Positions 48,813 through 60,133 of a stretch of 64,000 bases of DNA are shown piece by piece. The translations under genes were made by a program, and so were the position numbers. The DNA comes from Brachyspira pilosicoli P43/6/78 (GTDB taxonomy: Bacteria; Spirochaetota; Brachyspiria; Brachyspirales; Brachyspiraceae), in NCBI RefSeq assembly GCF_000325665.1, contig NC_019908.1, forward strand, positions 868,001 to 932,000, read 5' to 3'. Position 1 is the stretch's first letter. Each line of letters starts with the position of its first letter. The notes beneath the pieces were generated by a model, which made no database searches, was not told where the DNA came from, and was given only the letters and a program-made list of their open reading frames with translations.

Positions 48813-49904
48813 TCAATAATTTATCTTAAAAACAACCATAGAACAATCATCATCAGGACTCCTATAATCTAAATACTCATAAAAATCCTTCTTAATAGTT
48901 TCTACAATAGTCTCAGAACTATAAGCACTATTACTTATAAACATATCCTTTAATCTATCTATGCCGTATACATCATATTTATTTTTTGACTTTGAAGCCT
49001 CAATAATACCGTCTGTAAAAAACAAAAATACATCTCCATTATTAATCTCAATATCCTCTTCATGGAAATACGCTGTAGGAAATAAGCCTATTATTGTGCC
49101 TCCGTTTCTATATTCTTTAATAGCATTATTATGTATGGCAAGCAAAGGAGTATGAGATGCATTCGAATAACTTAAAACTCTATTTTTTAAATCTATTTTG
49201 GCAACTATCATAGTAGAATAATAACCATTAGGCATCATATTAATTAAGGTATCATTTATATCATGAAGCAAATCTCTAACACTTGTAAAACTTTTAGATA
49301 AATCCCTAAACGCCGTCTTTATTACAGCCGTTATTATAGCAGCATCTATACCATGACCGCTCACATCTGATATAATAAAAAGTATTTGACTAGTATCATC
49401 ATTTAAATAAACATAGTCAAAAAAATCTCCCCCTATTATCTCAACAGGATTATAAAATGAATAAGAAGATAAATGCTCATTATTAGGCATTTTTTTAGGA
49501 AGCATAAAACTCTGTATCTTCTTAGCTTTTTTCATATCTTTTTTATACTTCTTTCTTATGTTGTCCAATACATCATATCTTCCTAATATATACATGTTTT
49601 TTTCTTTTAATTTTCTTATAGCATTCTGATAATCATATAATATACTGCTAGTAATTTTTGAAAGCCTATATGTAACTCCATTATTTTGAGTTTCCATTAT
49701 TTCTTTATAATTGCTTATAGAACTATTTAAATAAAAATATACTATAGAAAAAGAAATTAAAAAAATTAAAAACAAAACAAGTAAAATAGCAAATACTATT
49801 TTTGTTTCATAATAGATTATAGAAGCAATATTTAATATAAGAAATAGCAAAGAAAATACTATAGCAATAATCTTAAAAAATATTAATAATTTTTCATTTC
49901 TCAT
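48813..49904 (-). CDS. Membrane-anchored PP2C-type (SpoIIE/RsbU family) serine phosphatase
   Basis: Signalling phosphatase (363 aa). Two N-terminal helices (residues about 8-60) anchor it. A linker of about 90 residues, partly coiled-coil, leads to the catalytic domain: QSFMLPKKMPNNEHL, the metal-binding VEIIGGDFFDYVYL and SDVSGHGIDAAIIT, LSYSNASHTPLL, and FFTDGIIEASKSKN with the C-terminal SPDDDCSMVVFKI. All PPM metal ligands are present. Such proteins usually dephosphorylate an anti-sigma-factor antagonist; no partner is adjacent. It is convergent with tRNA-Asn and its terminator. Confidence 0.92.
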   Translation of the reverse strand: MRNEKLLIFFKIIAIVFSLLFLILNIASIIYYETKIVFAILLVLFLIFLISFSIVYFYLNSSISNYKEIMETQNNGVTYRLSKITSSILYDYQNAIRKLKEKNMYILGRYDVLDNIRKKYKKDMKKAKKIQSFMLPKKMPNNEHLSSYSFYNPVEIIGGDFFDYVYLNDDTSQILFIISDVSGHGIDAAIITAVIKTAFRDLSKSFTSVRDLLHDINDTLINMMPNGYYSTMIVAKIDLKNRVLSYSNASHTPLLAIHNNAIKEYRNGGTIIGLFPTAYFHEEDIEINNGDVFLFFTDGIIEASKSKNKYDVYGIDRLKDMFISNSAYSSETIVETIKKDFYEYLDYRSPDDDCSMVVFKINY

Positions 49905-49981
49905 ATATTATTATAGATTATAACAAAAAGAAACAATTATGCAAATCTATTAATAATAAATAGTCATTAATAAAAAATATA

Positions 49982-50350
49982 TTATTTTTTAAATATAAAA
50001 AATACAGCTAATATTAAACATAAAAAACCAATGAAATGATTAATTCTCAAAGTTTCTGTTTTGAAAAATACAACTGTAAATATTGTGAATATTGTTAAAG
50101 TAATAACTTCCTGCATAACTTTTAATTGCATAAGCGAAAAAGGTCCCCCATTTCCATTAAAACCAATTCTGTTAGCAGGCACTTGAAAGCAGTATTCAAA
50201 TAAAGCAATGCCCCAGCTAATTAATATAACAAAAGGAAGAGATAATTTAGCAAAACCTTTCATCTCGCTAAATTTTAAATGCCCATACCAAGCTATAGTC
50301 ATAAATGTATTTGATAAAATAAGAAGTATTATAGTAGTTATACCTTTCAT
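49982..50350 (-). CDS. DUF486 / DMT-superfamily small membrane protein
   Basis: A 122-residue protein with four predicted helices, matching the DUF486 family (multidrug/metabolite-transporter superfamily fold). Recognisable stretches are LSNTFMTIAWYGHLKF, LFEYCFQVPANRIGF and QLKVMQEVITLTIFTIFTVVFF. Function unknown; perhaps a dimeric small transporter. The longer reading from 50359 starts at TTG; the ATG at 50350 has GGAG about ten bases upstream. It follows murB by about 57 bases on the same strand. Confidence 0.88.
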   Translation of the reverse strand: MKGITTIILLILSNTFMTIAWYGHLKFSEMKGFAKLSLPFVILISWGIALFEYCFQVPANRIGFNGNGGPFSLMQLKVMQEVITLTIFTIFTVVFFKTETLRINHFIGFLCLILAVFFIFKK

Positions 50351-50406
50351 AAGTTTCAATCTCCTATTTTTTACTATGATTTATTAAAAAAGAAATATTT
50401 ATTTTA

Positions 50407-51336
50407 CTAACTTAAAAGCTTAATATTAATTTTAGGATTTAAAGCATAATGCTGTTCTATTTTCTTTTTTGTATCATCTATTAAAGATAACACATCAGAA
50501 GCTTTAGACATATCAGTAGAGCAATTATCTATATAATGACATTCATTAACTATATAATTAGGAAATCTTTTGTGCCATCTCATAGTGCCTGCCTTCATAT
50601 CAAGCCCGCCAACTCTCTCAACCATCTCATAAGCTTTTATATTATCAAAATCTTCAAACACAGGACCAATATTAGCTTCCATTGGGGCAACAGAACCTCT
50701 TATATATCTAAACCAATCTATTCTATTATCTATACTTTCAGGAGAATCTTTCTCTAATCTTAAAGTAGCAGATAAAATAATCATATTATCCTTAATTTCT
50801 CTGCTGGAAGATAAATATTCATTTTTAGATATATCTTTTATAATCATTAAATCTTGATAAAGCACAGTTAAAGTCTCTACAATATCCATAAATGACATGC
50901 CAAAAGATTCAAGCTCTCCATAAATAGCAGACTCTATTCTGCTATTAACTAAAGCAACAAACTCCAAACCAGATAAATTTCTAATACGTGCCTCATGCGA
51001 AAGTCTCTCTAAAATAGCAGAACTATTAGCCTTTAATACGCAATCATCTAAAAACTCAAAATCTTCAAAACTTCCTTCCATAGATATAATAACGCCCTCA
51101 TATCCCTCATCAGATACAAGGAATTTATTTTTATCTTTTATCACAAAATATTTTATATTATTTTTATTTAAAAACACAAGTAAAGATAAAAGTTCATCTA
51201 TATTCTTTACAGTAACATATAAATCTACTATTCCACCAACACTAAAACTAGTACATTCTTTAAACGGACGGTTTTTATTGTATGTAACCTTATTTTCTTG
51301 TAAAAAATCTTCAAGAGCCTGATAATTTTTTTGCAT
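50407..51336 (-). CDS. MurB-like protein (UDP-N-acetylmuramate dehydrogenase family), catalytic motifs degenerate
   Basis: Homologous to MurB, the FAD enzyme that reduces UDP-GlcNAc-enolpyruvate (309 aa). The N-terminus (FKECTSFSVGGIVDLYVTVKN), LVSDEGYEGVII, the RYIRGS-like middle and FPNYIVNE keep the fold. Signature motifs are altered: the FAD-binding GGGSNLL is KDKNKFL (68-73), the GIPGTVGGA loop is LVNSRIESA (129-137), the YRxS stretch is YLSS (174-177), and the catalytic-Ser GSVF is GPVF (224-227). It may be inactive or regulatory. It overlaps murC by 26 bases (start inside murC), so it is translated with it. Confidence 0.82.
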   Translation of the reverse strand: MQKNYQALEDFLQENKVTYNKNRPFKECTSFSVGGIVDLYVTVKNIDELLSLLVFLNKNNIKYFVIKDKNKFLVSDEGYEGVIISMEGSFEDFEFLDDCVLKANSSAILERLSHEARIRNLSGLEFVALVNSRIESAIYGELESFGMSFMDIVETLTVLYQDLMIIKDISKNEYLSSSREIKDNMIILSATLRLEKDSPESIDNRIDWFRYIRGSVAPMEANIGPVFEDFDNIKAYEMVERVGGLDMKAGTMRWHKRFPNYIVNECHYIDNCSTDMSKASDVLSLIDDTKKKIEQHYALNPKINIKLLS

Positions 51337-52693
51337 AATCGTTACTAACCTTTACTATATTACCAGCCCCCAAAGTAATTATTATATCTCCGTCTTTTTT
51401 TATTTTTTCTAATTCTGGTAATATATCTTCTATATTTTTTATATATTTTATATTATTATTTTTTACTATTTTGCATATAGTCTCACCGCTAATTCCAGCA
51501 ATAGGACTTTCTCCTGCCGCATATATATCGGTAATTATCAAATTATCAGCATCTAAAAAAGCATTTTCAAAATCATTTAAAAGCAGCTGAGTTCTGCTGT
51601 ATCTATGAGGCTGAAATATAGCTATAATACGTCTGTCTTTATAAGCATTTCTAAGCGAAGACAATGTAGCTTTTATTTCTGTAGGGTGATGTCCATAATC
51701 ATCAAATAATGTTATCTCTTTATCATATAATTTATTTAATCTTCTGCCTACACCTTCAAAAGTTTTAAGTGCTTTTTTTATAGTATCAGTATCTATATCT
51801 AAATGATATGCTACAGCGATTGATGCTAAAGAATTAAGTACATTATGCTCCCCTATTAAAGGAAGTTCAAACTCGCCTAAAAACTTATCTTTATAATAAG
51901 CTTTAAAATATGTTTTAAACTCTTCTGTTTTTATAGAGCTTTTATCAACATAAAAATCATATTCATTAGAAAATCCATAAGAATAATATTTTTTACTTAC
52001 ACTTTTAGCCAAATCTTTTACAACATCATTTTCAAAACAAAGAAAAGAACAGCCATAAAAAGGAACTTTATTAATAAAATCCAAAAAAGCAAGTCTTAAT
52101 TTTTCAACATTGCCGTAATAATCTAAATGGTCATTATCTATATTTGTAACTACGCTAAATACAGGTGAAAGTCTTAAAAAGCTTCCGTCACTCTCATCTG
52201 CCTCGCAAACCATATATTCACTATTCAAATTACAATAAGCATTGCTCTTAAGATTAAAATGATTTCCGCCTATTATACATATAGGGTTTAATTCAGCTTC
52301 TATCATTATTTGACTTATTAAAGAAGTGGTAGTAGTTTTACCATGAGAGCCTGATATTGCTATGCCTTGTTTTAAACGCATAATTTCAGCAAGCATTTCC
52401 CCTCTTGGTATTACAATAATATTTTTCTTTTTAGCTGATATTATCTCTTCATTAGTTGGGCTTATTGCAGAAGAACTAACAACTGCTGTAACATCATCTT
52501 CTACATTGCTTTCTTTATGACCATAATAAACTTTTATGCCGCAATCTTCAAGCGACTGAGTTTTTGGAGTTTTAGCTAAATCGCTTCCTGTAATAGTAAA
52601 TTCATCTATAGAATTAAGAACCAATGCTATAGCACTCATTCCTATTCCGCCTATTCCTATAAAATGTATCTTCTCTTTCTTTTTTGTAAACAT
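51311..52693 (-). CDS. murC: UDP-N-acetylmuramate--L-alanine ligase
   Basis: Adds the first amino acid, L-alanine, to UDP-MurNAc in peptidoglycan synthesis. The 460 residues show the N-terminal nucleotide fold HFIGIGGIGMSAIALVLN, the ATP loop ISGSHGKTTTTSLISQI, EADESDGSFLRL, TNIDNDHLDYYGN, a central LIGEHNVLNSLASIAVAYHL and C-terminal FDDYGHHPTEIKATL with FQPHRYSRTQLLL. All intact and full length. It is the first gene of a pair with the murB-like gene, whose start lies inside its 3' end. Confidence 0.97.
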   Translation of the reverse strand: MFTKKKEKIHFIGIGGIGMSAIALVLNSIDEFTITGSDLAKTPKTQSLEDCGIKVYYGHKESNVEDDVTAVVSSSAISPTNEEIISAKKKNIIVIPRGEMLAEIMRLKQGIAISGSHGKTTTTSLISQIMIEAELNPICIIGGNHFNLKSNAYCNLNSEYMVCEADESDGSFLRLSPVFSVVTNIDNDHLDYYGNVEKLRLAFLDFINKVPFYGCSFLCFENDVVKDLAKSVSKKYYSYGFSNEYDFYVDKSSIKTEEFKTYFKAYYKDKFLGEFELPLIGEHNVLNSLASIAVAYHLDIDTDTIKKALKTFEGVGRRLNKLYDKEITLFDDYGHHPTEIKATLSSLRNAYKDRRIIAIFQPHRYSRTQLLLNDFENAFLDADNLIITDIYAAGESPIAGISGETICKIVKNNNIKYIKNIEDILPELEKIKKDGDIIITLGAGNIVKVSNDYAKKLSGS

Positions 52694-52772: not shown

Positions 52773-53228
52773 TTAATTAATATTAATTTTCTTTATAATA
52801 TTTGTGGTAGAATACCCATTTACGAAATCTATTAATACGGTCTGTTTAGCATATTCTCTGCCAACAACCTCTTCTATTTTATAATCTCCGCCCTTTACCA
52901 AAATATCAGGTTTTATAAATTTAATTAATTCTAAAGGGGTGTCTTCATCAAAAATAACAACATAATCAATACATTCTAAAGCAGATAATACTATAGCCCT
53001 ATCAGTTTCATTATTTATTGGTCTGCTAGCACCTTTTAACCTTCTCACAGAATCATCACTATTTAAGCCAAGTATAAGTATATCTCCAAGCTCTTTTGCT
53101 TTTTGTAAATACTCTACATGTCCCCTATGAATAATATCAAAACAGCCGTTAGTAAATACTATCTTTTTTCCTTCTCTAGCATTCAATATATTTTTTAATT
53201 CTTCTAAATTATTAAGTATCTTTTTCAT
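52773..53228 (-). CDS. HldE/RfaE2-type sugar nucleotidyltransferase
   Basis: Nucleotidyltransferase of the cytidylyltransferase-like family, closest to the C-terminal domain of HldE (RfaE2), which adenylates D-glycero-beta-D-manno-heptose 1-phosphate for lipo-oligosaccharide (151 aa). Motifs: [21 protein letters not shown] (HxGH), [39 protein letters not shown] and C-terminal [11 protein letters not shown]. The HldE kinase domain is absent, as in split RfaE1/RfaE2 systems. The reading from 53237 begins TTG; the ATG at 53228 is preferred. Monocistronic, 80 bases before murC. Confidence 0.9.
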
Positions 53229-53337
53229 AATCAACAAAGCATAAACAAAACTATTTTGAAATTTTGATATTAATTATATCATAAAATCAATTAATAACAA
53301 TCAAAATTGAGCAATAATTTAAATTAATTATATTTTT

Positions 53338-54744
53338 TTAATTATTAGCTCTTTTTTTGGAAGCAAAAAATACTATAAAACCAAATAACAAATATAAAGC
53401 AGAAGTAATTATTGCTGTAATTAAATTATCCATAGTAGAACCAATAGCTAAAACAGTATTTAAAATAGGAACAACCAAAAGCCCAGTAACAGACATCAAT
53501 GAAAAGCCTAAAGAAAACTCACTTAAAGCAGGACTTTTATAATCAGGGTCGCATATTTTAAGAAGCGTCATACCAGTGATGAGTACCCCTGTTAAAGTGC
53601 CCCAAGAAATTATAGCTCTCTCAAAAGTATAATCATCTTTAAATAATATTTTAGTAAAATAAAACACTATTAAATATGTAAATACAAATCCAAGCACGCA
53701 CATAACTATTATTGGAGCCATATAAGTCATAACAGCCTTTATAGGCAAGCTTGTTATAGCAGATACTATAGCAAAGTCGCTTAAAGTACCCATTATTTTA
53801 GCCTTTACTTTAGAATCTACACACCAAGATAATTTTAGTTTTTTTATAGCGAAGTTTAATGCAAACATTATTATCATAGCATAAGTCCAAACAGGCAAAA
53901 CATTAAGCCCCTGTATACCTACTTTTTTTATAAATCCTAATACAATATAAGCAACAGCACATACACTAAATATAATAGCAAGGTGAAAAGTTATAGTCTC
54001 TATTGAGCTGCTGAAAAAAGTCTCTCTTCCCAAACTAGCCTGCTTAGATATATCATTATTATAACCCACCTTTGTAGGGTCTTCACTTGATATTTTTTTT
54101 ACTATATTAGTTTTATTTTTTCTTATAGCAATATTAATAAAAACTATACCAAAAAGTATACCGCCAATAAGCCCAATAGTAGCAGTAGTTAAAGCAACAC
54201 CCTGAGCAGTTTCTTGTATTATTATAGGAAGTCCAAAGCCTTCAAGCAATTTACCAGTTGAAGCTGCAAGCCCATGACCTCCTGCAAACCCTGCAGAAAG
54301 TTCATAACCGAATGTTCTATACATTGGCATATTTGGAGATATTTTTGTAAATAGTATATTTGTAGCATAGCCTATAGCAGATTGAGCCATACTTGCACAT
54401 TGAAATATAGCAAATAACATTAAAACTTTAGCAGGATAAAGTGATTTTATAGTTTTGTTTTCATTTAAAAACATACCCAAAGGAATGGCCGCAAATATCG
54501 GCACAGATAAAATACCTGGTAAAAGAGAATAAAACTTAATATATTCAACTGATATAGAATAATTAGTAAATCTTCCTAAAATCTCTGGTGATATTATGAG
54601 TCCTATAAATCCTCCTATTACAGAGGCAGGCAAATATAATTCTTGAAAAAGTTTTACCTTTGCCCTTAAAAAAGTACCTATTAATAATAATATAGACAAG
54701 AGTCCCAATGCTTGAAGTAATTGAGTTAATAATTGCGAAGTCAT
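53338..54744 (-). CDS. gltS: Sodium/glutamate symporter GltS
   Basis: Na+-coupled glutamate uptake protein (468 aa) with about ten to twelve helices in two inverted repeats. Typical motifs: ELYLPASVIGGFIGLI, the first re-entrant loop AGFAGGHGLAASTG, and the second-half WGTLTGVLITGMTLLKICDP (the mirrored GTxTG loop). A polar Lys/Asp-rich loop (about residues 205-245) divides the halves, as in GltS. The start overlaps by 4 bases the stop of the SanA-like gene upstream (ATGA-type), so the two are translationally coupled. Confidence 0.95.
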   Translation of the reverse strand: MTSQLLTQLLQALGLLSILLLIGTFLRAKVKLFQELYLPASVIGGFIGLIISPEILGRFTNYSISVEYIKFYSLLPGILSVPIFAAIPLGMFLNENKTIKSLYPAKVLMLFAIFQCASMAQSAIGYATNILFTKISPNMPMYRTFGYELSAGFAGGHGLAASTGKLLEGFGLPIIIQETAQGVALTTATIGLIGGILFGIVFINIAIRKNKTNIVKKISSEDPTKVGYNNDISKQASLGRETFFSSSIETITFHLAIIFSVCAVAYIVLGFIKKVGIQGLNVLPVWTYAMIIMFALNFAIKKLKLSWCVDSKVKAKIMGTLSDFAIVSAITSLPIKAVMTYMAPIIVMCVLGFVFTYLIVFYFTKILFKDDYTFERAIISWGTLTGVLITGMTLLKICDPDYKSPALSEFSLGFSLMSVTGLLVVPILNTVLAIGSTMDNLITAIITSALYLLFGFIVFFASKKRANN

Positions 54745-55562
54745 TTTTTTTCCTGATATAATTTTTTATTTAATTTATTGCTTTTAGTTTTTATAATTTC
54801 TCTCTCTTCTATTTTTATGTGGTCGCCATAAAACTTTGGAGGTCTATTAAAAAGAATATCGGCAAACATAAGTAATCTTGCACCAACTTCTCTTGGAAAT
54901 TGTCTTATTCTATATAGTTTTCTTACATTATCAGCACTATAGGCTATAGCATTAATCTTTTTTTCTCTAGCAATAAATACTGCCCTCTCATTGTGAAACG
55001 GCTGAGAGACTATAGTAAAATTAGTTAAATCAAAAACCCTATTTGCTCTTAATATAGAATCCCTTGTTCTAAAGCCGGCAAAATCTAAAAATATATGTCT
55101 TTTATCAACCCCAAGCTTTATTAAATCTAAACGCATCTGTCTAGGTTCATTGTAAGACCTATGCCTATTATCACCGCTTACTAGTATATATTTTACTTTG
55201 CCATTAGTATAAAGTTCATAAGCTGCATCCATTCTAAACTTAAAATACATATTTATTCTTCCGTCAGACAAATATTTACTTGTTCCTAATACCAAAGCAA
55301 CATCATTATATGGAATCTCTTCTATAGAATCATATATATATTTCTTTGAATAACTAGATACACTAAAATATGATATTAATGCTATAAAAACAAAAATAAT
55401 AACAAACTCTAAAATAAATTGATAAAAAGAGTAAATAGCTAGTAAAATATAATTAATTATTTTTAAAAATATATTATCATAATTTTTACTAATATAATTA
55501 AACTCATAGGCTATTAATTTTATTTTTTTTATATATTTATTTTTTAATCTGCTAAACACCAT
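54741..55562 (-). CDS. SanA/YdcF-like (DUF218) membrane-anchored protein
   Basis: Protein of the DUF218/ElyC-SanA-YdcF family, linked in other bacteria to envelope integrity and vancomycin sensitivity (273 aa). A membrane helix lies near residues 40-68. The family domain follows: DVALVLGTSKYLSDGRINMYFKFRMDAA, YTNGKVKYILVSGDNRHRSYNEPRQMRLDLI, FLDFAGFRTRDSILRANRVF and TIVSQPFHNERAVFIAREK. The longer reading (55571) starts with TTG; ATG at 55562 is more likely, although the ribosome binding site is weak. The end overlaps gltS. Confidence 0.9.
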   Translation of the reverse strand: MVFSRLKNKYIKKIKLIAYEFNYISKNYDNIFLKIINYILLAIYSFYQFILEFVIIFVFIALISYFSVSSYSKKYIYDSIEEIPYNDVALVLGTSKYLSDGRINMYFKFRMDAAYELYTNGKVKYILVSGDNRHRSYNEPRQMRLDLIKLGVDKRHIFLDFAGFRTRDSILRANRVFDLTNFTIVSQPFHNERAVFIAREKKINAIAYSADNVRKLYRIRQFPREVGARLLMFADILFNRPPKFYGDHIKIEEREIIKTKSNKLNKKLYQEKK

Positions 55563-55672
55563 GCTAAACAATACAAGTTATTATTTTTTTAATATTATCG
55601 TAAAAAATATAGGGAACTTTCCTTATAAATAATTCGTCTAATATTACATAATAAAACTCATTAGGATTGTTT

Positions 55673-56805: not shown

Positions 56806-57057
56806 CAATTTCTAACTACATAGTTTTTATACTTTATTTTGGAAAGTGATAATATATTAACAAACAATTTTAATCAAGTATTTTTTTTACATTTTATTTA
56901 CATTTTTTACAATAAAAACATATATCTTTTTATTGTTCTTTATAATATATAATATTACTATTTTTTACATAATATGTGTTAAAATAATAATTAATTATTT
57001 TACTTGAATATTTTTTTATATATAAATATAATTATTATAATTTTTATATATAAAAAA

Positions 57058-60000
57058 ATGAAAAAGTTTATATTATTTATAATAAATAAACCTACTACAG
57101 TATCTGTTACTTTAGTTTCTATATTTATAATAGGATTTGTAAGTATATCTAAATTAAAAGTAGATTATTTACCGAATATGGAGATTCCTATTATAAGCGT
57201 AAAAACAGTATACGAAAACTCTGCTCCGGAAGAAGTTGAAAAAAACGTTACAAGAATAATAGAAAGTGCAATATCTTCAGTAAATAATGTAAAAAACATA
57301 AAATCAAAATCAAAAGAATCAGAATCAAATGTAGAAATAGAGTTTAATTGGGGAACTGATTTACAAACTGCAGCAGATGACATCAGAGAAGCAATAGATA
57401 TGATAAGAAGTGAGCTTCCTGATGATGTTGATAATCCAAATATTTCAAAGTTTTCAAGCGATGCTAGTCCTATAATGGAGATAGCATTTTTTGGTATTGA
57501 TAATTTAAGTGCATTATATGATTTAATAGACAGCAGAATACTCACATCATTAGAGCAAATTGAAGGAGTAGCACAAACAGAGATAAGAGGCGGACTTAAA
57601 AAAACTATTTATGTGGATATAAACCTAAATAGATTAAATGCCTATTTTATAAATATTAATGATATAGTAAAAACTCTTTCTATAGAAAATCAAAATATAG
57701 TTGGAGGTCAAACATATGAAGGCGTTTATAAATATGGAATAAGAACCAAAGGAGAGTTTAAAAATATAAATGATATAGAAAATGTAGTAGTAGCTTTAAA
57801 AAATAATATATTTCCTGTAAAAATAAGAGATATAGCAAATGTGTATGAATATTATGATGATGAAGCAGAGATAGTAAGGATTAATGGTCAAAAAGCAGTA
57901 AGTGTAGCTATAACAAAAGAATCTGGTGCTAATATCATACAAATATCAAGAGATGTAAATAAAAGATTAGAAACAATGGATTTGCCTTATGGAGTATATT
58001 ATAAAGTATTATTCAATAGCTCTGATACAATCAATAACTCAATAAAAAATGTAATAAGTACAATATGGCAAGGAGCTTTATTTGCAATAATAATTCTTAT
58101 GATATATTTATGGGATATAAAAAGCGTAATCATAATATCAATATCAATACCCATATCCGTAATAACAACATTTATATTAATGTATTTTTTGGATATATCA
58201 ATAAATATTATATCTCTTTCAGGGTTAGTTCTTGGTGTTGGAATGATGCTTGATAACTCTATAGTAGTGCTTGAAAATATTTTTATACATAATAAAGATT
58301 CTAATAATATAATAGATAATATAAAAGCCTCTGTAAATGGTGCTAGTGAAGTTTCTATAGCAATAACAGCATCAACTCTAACAAGCGTATCCGTTTTTTT
58401 GCCGTTTCTATTTGTAAAAGGTCAAGTGGAGCAAATGTTTAGTGATTTATGTTTAACAGTATCAATATCTCTATTAACTTCTCTTTTTGTTGCCATTACA
58501 ATAGTGCCTTTGCTTGCTTCGAGAATTAAAAACAATAATTTTAAGTTTACAAAATTAGAGTCATTTTTTCAAAATAATATTCACAGCAAAACAGAAAAGT
58601 TTTATTTAACACTATTATCATTAGTGATGAAAAACAAAAGAAAATCATTTTTAATTAATATTTTCAGTATTATTTTCTTTGCTAATATTAATGCTTATAA
58701 AAATACCCAAAGAAGGATACCCTGTGTCTGATGCCGGCACTATAATATCAAGACTAAGAATGCCTGTTGGTACAAGAGTGCAATTTACAGATTTGTTTAT
58801 TGACAGAATGGAAGATGATATAGAAAACAGCGTTGGAGAGAATATAGATTATTATGAAACAAGAGTAAGAACAGGAAGGAATGAACATCATGGAGAGGTG
58901 AGAGTAAAATTAATAGACAGAGAAAAAGGAAGAGATAAAGATATTAACTATTATATAGAAGAGATAAGAAATAAAGTAAATGGATACCCAGGAAGAATAG
59001 AATTAAACTCAGAAAATGTGGCAATGGGAAAACCTAAAGATTATAGCTCTATTATAATAGAATTAGTCGGAGATAATTTAGATATTGGTTATGATGTGGC
59101 AAGCAATGTTATTAATGCAGTTTCTAAAGTAGAAGGAATAAGAAATGTGCTTATAAAAGAAGATGACTCTAATCATGAAATATTATTTACTATAAATAGA
59201 GATTTAATATCAAAAATAGGAATTAGCTTAGATACTATAGGAAGCATAATTCGTACTTCTTTTAGCGGAACTGTTGCAAGTACTATGACATTAGAAAACT
59301 CTTTATATATAGATTCTGATATAGTAGTAAGACTTGAAGACAGTACAAGAGAAAATATAGACGGTGTATACAAATTAATGATACCAACAGGAACAAACAT
59401 TATACCAATATCTTCTGTGGTAAAAATATCTAAATCAACAGGTCCTACAGAAATAAATAGAAAAAATGATAATAGAATAATAGAAATAACAGCAAGTTCA
59501 TATGGAAGGGCTGTAAACGAGATAATAGCAGATATAAAAAAAGAATTAAATAATATATATATACCAAGCGGATTTTTAATAAATTTTTCAGGCGATTATG
59601 AGGATATGCAGGAATCTTTTCAGCAATTATTAGTGTCATTAATAATGGCTATAGTATTTGTTTATGCGATAATAGCAGGTCAATTTGAATCATATATAAC
59701 GCCTTTTGTAATATCATTATCTGTGCCTTTTGCTTTGTTTGGAGCATTAATATTTCTTTATATTGGCGGTGAAACTTTAAACGTATATAGTGCAATAGGT
59801 ATTATAATGCTTGTTGGTATAGTTGTAAACAATGGAATAGTTTTAATAGATTATATGAATAAAGTTGTACTAGAAGAAAATATTTCTTGGAATGAATCAG
59901 CTTTGAGAGCTTGTAAGAGAAGATTAAAACCTGTGCTTATGACTTCTTTAACTACTATTTTGGGTATGCTTCCTATGATGTTAAAAGTAGGAAACGGCAC

Positions 60001-60133
60001 AGAGATGTATAAACCACTGGCTACTGCTGTTTGCGGAGGACTTTTATTTTCTACAGTATTTACTCTTATAATAATACCTGCAGTATATTCTAGTTTTAGA
60101 AATAGATTTAATATAAAAAGAGAATATGATTAA
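57058..60133 (+). CDS. RND family efflux transporter permease (AcrB/HAE1 type), frame broken by one extra base
   Basis: Inner-membrane pump of the resistance-nodulation-division family, proton-driven. The first piece has helix 1 (MKKFILFIINKPTTVSVTLVS), the porter domain with YENSAPEEVEKNVTRIIE, and helices 2-6 with SGLVLGVGMMLDNSIVVLENI (the proton-relay Asp region) and FLPFLFVKGQVEQMF. The second piece carries LPKEGYP-like IPKEGYPVSDAG, PFALFGALIFLYIGGETLNVYSAIGIIMLVGIVVNNGIVLIDYMN and RRLKPVLMTSLTTILGMLPMML. The shift lies near 58673-58680; removing one T gives a normal 1024 residues. No adaptor (MFP) or TolC gene is adjacent. The ATG at 57058 is preferred over TTG at 57004. Confidence 0.92.

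Follow-up and report, generated by a model that had tools for sequence, protein, structure and literature searches.

A conserved MurB-fold paralogue without catalytic residues, encoded beside murC in Brachyspira and its relatives

The gene that follows murC in Brachyspira pilosicoli P43/6/78 encodes a paralogue of the peptidoglycan enzyme MurB, here termed pMurB, which is without the catalytic Ser and Glu and without the FAD-loop signatures, as judged from its open reading frame, profile searches, alignment and predicted structure. The best explanation that we can offer is that pMurB is a conserved pseudoenzyme that serves MurC as a protein partner without catalytic activity, a reading that leads the others and to which we give about an even chance. 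The usual picture of the early steps of peptidoglycan synthesis is a succession of enzymes under metabolite feedback, and a dedicated protein partner of MurC, if true, would be a new control point. Wall synthesis in Brachyspira is little studied; a study of Brachyspira proteomes lists MurC with the abundant proteins of these pathways, and the name of the MurB enzyme was not found in its main text (PMC4955376). The analysis started from a window of 64,000 nucleotides (NC_019908.1, positions 868,001 to 932,000), to which the coordinates below refer unless a genome locus is named; pMurB and murC both lie on its minus strand.

The pMurB frame, its lost signatures and its fold

The pMurB frame runs from 51336 to 50407 (50407..51336, minus strand), starts with ATG and encodes 309 residues. 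The protein is a MurB homologue that falls under every curated MurB cut-off tried, scoring 116.1 bits with NF010480 (cut-off 259), 66.6 bits with TIGR00179 (cut-off 144.5) and 20.7 with Pfam MurB_C (cut-off 27). The catalytic set of the E. coli enzyme consists of Ser229, Glu325 and the Arg of the YRxS stretch. A role of Ser229 in proton transfer has been stated (PMC9658463). Positions of the canonical residues follow the numbering of E. coli MurB, which serves as an approximate guide. In the alignment, the first FAD loop, GGGSNxL (47–53), is K-D-K-N-K-F-L in pMurB, where KYFVIKDKNKF stands at the place of the canonical LGGGSN (codons 62–72, 51121..51153). The second loop, PG..GG (111–116), is N-S..E-S, with Glu and Leu for N121 and A122, so that NSRIESAIYGEL stands at the place of the canonical PGTVGGAxxxNA (codons 131–142, 50911..50946). 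The YRxS stretch (158–161) is S-S-R-E, Ser229 is Pro225 in a GPVFE that replaces GSVFK (codons 224–228, 50653..50667), Asn233 is Asp229, and the position of the catalytic Glu325 (codons 303–304, 50425..50430) is taken by Asn304, the last 14 residues being without any Glu. Arg213 (Lys217 in E. coli, Arg in these MurBs) is retained in all pMurBs and all canonical MurBs compared.

The original prediction had listed the altered FAD loop, the altered GIPGTVGGA-type loop, the altered YRxS and GPVF for GSVF, and all of these changes are real and fixed, recurring in the orthologues; to them must be added the missing C-terminal Glu. Across all pMurBs compared, the residue aligned with Ser229 is Pro or Leu and that aligned with Glu325 is never Glu. 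The FAD-loop patterns GxGSN and PGxxGG..N are absent from pMurB and largely retained in the pMurBs of a second family of the order (family f2), and of the pattern Y[RK]xS, likewise absent from pMurB, the RxS portion persists only in the f2 proteins. The possibility that the residues are present in shifted positions was ruled out, as the orthologues have no Ser or Cys after the glycine of GxxF and, in Brachyspira, no Arg in the YRxS stretch, and the Glu that lies one column off the Glu325 position in the pMurB of one genome (G026) is absent from its sister (G028). With these residues gone, pMurB is very probably not a working MurB, and by its sequence it would neither bind FAD nor have reductase activity.

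A pseudogene or a sequencing error was also ruled out, as the gene is intact in 28 genomes with a low dN/dS. The assembly that carries pMurB does contain broken frames at other places. An RND-type efflux transporter gene (window 57004-60133, plus strand) is split into overlapping frames (57004-58731 and 58679-60133) by a frameshift or an assembly error, and a murE-like Mur ligase gene is split into two frames (L155:330-1539; G000:C1:1001529-1002738); since the latter gene should be essential, its split probably reflects either an error of sequencing or a site of frameshifting.

pMurB is confidently predicted to keep the MurB fold, with its FAD_binding_4 and MurB_C domains, in line with the earlier remark that the fold-level stretches remain. 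An AlphaFold2 model built from the pMurB alignment with canonical MurBs added has a pLDDT of 91.8, and its top fold match is the MurB 3tx1 (Z 32.2, 1.9 Å over 285 residues); the next non-MurB folds, which are other VAO-type flavoproteins, reach a Z of 14.9 or below, and the Ser229Ala structure 1uxy is among the matches. The canonical rows may bias this model toward MurB, but a model from pMurBs only (overall pLDDT 77.9, with a good FAD domain and poor residues from about 205 to 245) still ranks MurBs at the top, with a Z of 18.1.

A working MurB elsewhere, and the conservation and loss of pMurB

Searches of the whole genome (2.56 Mb, one contig) with MurB_C and NF010480 yielded one MurB gene besides pMurB. 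It is intact, lies 1.47 Mb from pMurB at G000:C1:2387053-2387928 and is unlinked to murC, and it therefore confirms the first of three alternatives that the original prediction had raised, namely that a true MurB exists elsewhere. The encoded protein is above both the NF010480 and the TIGR00179 cut-offs and all of its signatures are intact (GGGSN, PGSIGGA, YKKS, AGST and AEVR). Just 3' of this working murB is a frameshifted gene resembling that of a radical-SAM activating enzyme (L001:1808-2804, G000), whose relatives match over about 99 residues and then diverge. The two MurB-like proteins belong to the same superfamily, are 18% identical in a common alignment and have been on separate tree branches since at least the ancestor of the order: all pMurBs group in a single clade (100/100) that excludes the working MurBs of their own genomes, by which a recent duplication of the working MurB was ruled out. 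All genomes that are at least 90% complete and have pMurB also carry a working MurB, and the two genomes with pMurB and no working MurB are 85–86% complete. Similarity-based annotation can label both genes as murB, and mistaking pMurB for the essential gene would mislead.

pMurB orthologues were found in 28 of 61 related genomes surveyed, comprising 23 of 26 Brachyspira, three further genomes from its family and two from a different family within the order. Across 393 Spirochaetota genomes, matches to the pMurB profile that are not pMurBs score at most 186 bits, compared with at least 384 for true pMurBs. A scan of 84,980 species with short patterns, which distant cases may escape, placed pMurB only in Brachyspira and in unnamed Spirochaetes/Spirochaetia, a Clostridium match proving to be an ordinary MurB. 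Phage records gave weak matches only (22–27% identity in the five listed), so that a phage origin is not borne out, and a library of anti-phage defence systems gave no match to pMurB.

Because its orthologues lie 3' of murC in 28 genomes, show a low dN/dS and form one clade, pMurB is no local curiosity in decay; it is under strong purifying selection as a protein. In close pairs its dN/dS is 0.03–0.10, a range like that of murC and the working murB, and its frame is full-length in all 28 genomes. At longer distances pMurB evolves faster, with a median dN/dS of 0.27 against 0.16 for murC and 0.14 for the working murB. Two near-complete Brachyspira genomes (G009 and G021, both 99% complete) have no pMurB anywhere, and hence pMurB is dispensable over evolution. 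In both, ftsW-murG-murC is followed by unrelated genes, which is a clean loss of pMurB; the comparison of a single loss with separate losses gave an AU p of 0.25, and their MurCs have a single unusual site in common, which does not exceed the number in control pairs.

Linkage to murC and the course of the loss

The constant neighbour of pMurB is murC (51311..52693, minus strand), which encodes UDP-N-acetylmuramate--L-alanine ligase and is intact, matching TIGR01082 with 510 bits (cut-off 335). The 3' end of murC and the start of pMurB overlap by 26 bases (51311..51336, minus strand), exactly the length first proposed. All genomes compared from Brachyspira and Brachyspiraceae have an overlapping start, the overlap in Brachyspiraceae being 20–32 bases with the murC stop counted; for the two f2 genomes, taking the first possible pMurB start gives a longer overlap with murC, but the true start there is unsure. 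In each of the 28 genomes that carry pMurB, the gene comes immediately 3' of murC, and the row ftsW-murG-murC-pMurB is present in both families of the order. The murC of the B. pilosicoli clade has become separated from ftsW-murG, with murG now 225 kb away, and pMurB is still with murC.

Where the row was broken in the B. pilosicoli clade, a gene for an hldE adenylyltransferase domain (window 52773-53237) is beside the relocated murC, and an epimerase gene resembling hldD is beside murG (L156, G000:C1:690500-695500). The flanks of murC-pMurB (window 53338-55571 and 48813-50359) vary between Brachyspira clades; among the loci compared, only the pilosicoli clade has transporter-like and SanA-like genes on the upstream side of this place and, on the downstream side, DMT_6 and SpoIIE-phosphatase genes.

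The nearest canonical relative of the pMurB clade is placed by the tree with weak support (69/86). In an outgroup from another family of the phylum (G032) the row is ftsW-murG-murC-murB, with a canonical MurB in the pMurB slot, and because of this and of the row shared by both families of the order, pMurB most simply descends from an operonic murB. The same outgroup holds two types of MurB, the operonic one and one that groups with E. coli MurB (L112 G032:C71, L099 G032:C67); the acquisition of a second MurB has therefore happened elsewhere in the phylum.

The loss of canonical residues is graded. A set of 42 columns, each conserved to at least 85% among 28 canonical spirochaete MurBs, is retained to 88% in the order's working MurBs and to 70% in the f2 pMurBs, compared with 50–52% in other Brachyspiraceae, 42% in Brachyspira pMurBs and 40% in the pMurB of the window. 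The f2 pMurBs retain LGDATN, LPGTVGG..NA and the Arg of YRxS, and have Leu for Ser229 and Asn for Glu325; they would be expected to take up FAD but to show no turnover. Because they keep the FAD loops without the Ser and Glu, the alignment indicates that the catalytic residues were lost first and the FAD loops later. The order is thus a natural series, with an active outgroup enzyme in the slot, loss of Ser and Glu, loss of the FAD site and loss of the gene, that can be used to study the change from enzyme to pseudoenzyme.

pMurBs have also gained residues of their own. Twenty-two positions are nearly fixed in pMurBs and rare in 40 canonical MurBs, among them E110, R111, E115 and R117 in a helix (110–117) and Y211, G214, W254, F258, P259, Y261, T289, Q295, H296 and Y297 in the C-terminal former substrate domain. 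The latter domain contains the clade-specific motif WHKRFPNYI (codons 254–262, 50551..50577), of which W254, P259 and Y261 are fixed in all pMurBs compared and absent from the 40 canonical MurBs. As a guess, W254, F258 and Y261 might fill the former pocket.

Possible roles of pMurB and comparison with known systems

Catalytic residues lost across the clade, purifying selection and an active enzyme in parallel together make it well supported, at the level of sequence, that pMurB is a pseudoenzyme. In the proposed scenario, the catalytic Ser and Glu would have disappeared, in the ancestor of the order, from the murB product of an ftsW-murG-murC-murB row, with another MurB, encoded at an unlinked locus, carrying out the reduction. 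Relieved of this task, pMurB would have preserved its fold and would still have been translated together with murC, residues new to the former substrate domain would have become fixed, and the FAD-binding loops would have been lost afterwards in Brachyspiraceae. Made together with MurC by way of the overlapping start, pMurB would bind MurC and thereby stabilise it, hold it in a complex of Mur enzymes or tune its activity. That MurC is the partner is suggested by linkage and overlap, and we regard it as about equally likely to be right or wrong. This reading is favoured because the linkage has outlived the break-up of the row, translation overlaps, the fold is kept, new residues have become invariant and MurB-MurC fusions are known. 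The original prediction had offered a regulator of MurC as its third alternative, and this is plausible to the extent that the unbroken murC-pMurB linkage across the order favours it. Against the partnership, the linkage may be a remnant of the operon's former organisation, and the two genomes that lack pMurB show no clear change in MurC, pMurB being dispensable there and evolving faster over long distances. The wider proposal, that an enzyme of the Mur pathway has become a non-catalytic subunit dedicated to MurC, the enzyme of the following step, or an allosteric regulator of it, with living intermediates in which the catalytic residues went before the cofactor site, is held more tentatively, at somewhat below an even chance.

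A pseudoenzyme need not be tied to MurC, and pMurB could instead sense a nucleotide sugar (UDP-GlcNAc-enolpyruvate, UDP-MurNAc or another) bound in what used to be its active site, or be the partner of a different protein. The Arg213 kept in all proteins compared and the newly fixed W254, F258, P259 and Y261 in the former substrate domain would suit such a role, for which the chance is perhaps one in four, whereas Asn233, Tyr158, Ser229 and Glu325 are all changed and the unbroken linkage to murC would be left unexplained. It is improbable that pMurB is still an enzyme, whether a modified MurB or a reductase whose chemistry has changed. The fully kept fold in the prediction and the FAD loops and YRxS Arg of the f2 members speak for activity, but in Brachyspira the FAD loops, Ser, Glu and Tyr are gone and a complete MurB is always alongside in the genomes of at least 90% completeness, and the second alternative of the original prediction, function in an altered way, is unlikely for the same reasons (Ser, Glu, YRxS and the FAD loops gone, an intact MurB alongside). 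Slightly less probable again is a functionless relic held in place by its frame tie to murC, for example by translation or mRNA that protects the murC message. Its clean loss in two species and its faster long-term evolution would fit a relic; the low dN/dS over pMurB, the full-length frame in every genome that has it, the clade-specific invariant residues and the confident fold would not, and the overlap spans only about nine codons.

No description of a MurB pseudoenzyme, a MurB paralogue or pMurB was found in the openly licensed literature, and the pMurB family is apparently undescribed, pseudoenzyme paralogues as a kind being already known. With MurB itself (UDP-N-acetylenolpyruvoylglucosamine reductase, EC 1.3.1.98; 3tx1, 4pyt and 1hsk), pMurB shares the three-domain fold (Z 31–32, about 2 Å over 285–293 residues), the length, the place after murC and a recognisable sequence (20–23% identity), and it differs in being without the FAD-loop signatures, YRxS, the catalytic Ser/Cys and the catalytic Glu and in falling below all of the curated cut-offs. 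Elsewhere, MurB and MurC can be fused in one protein, and in Caulobacter the Mur proteins co-localise (PMC6420597). Such fusions and Mur-enzyme complexes have in common with pMurB a physical or genetic coupling of MurB to MurC; in those, however, the MurB portion is assumed to be enzymatic, while pMurB is without catalytic residues. In general kind, pMurB resembles pseudoenzymes such as pseudokinases that regulate active relatives or partners in their pathway, and which, like pMurB, have kept the fold, lost the catalytic residues and been conserved for long with an intact enzyme in parallel.
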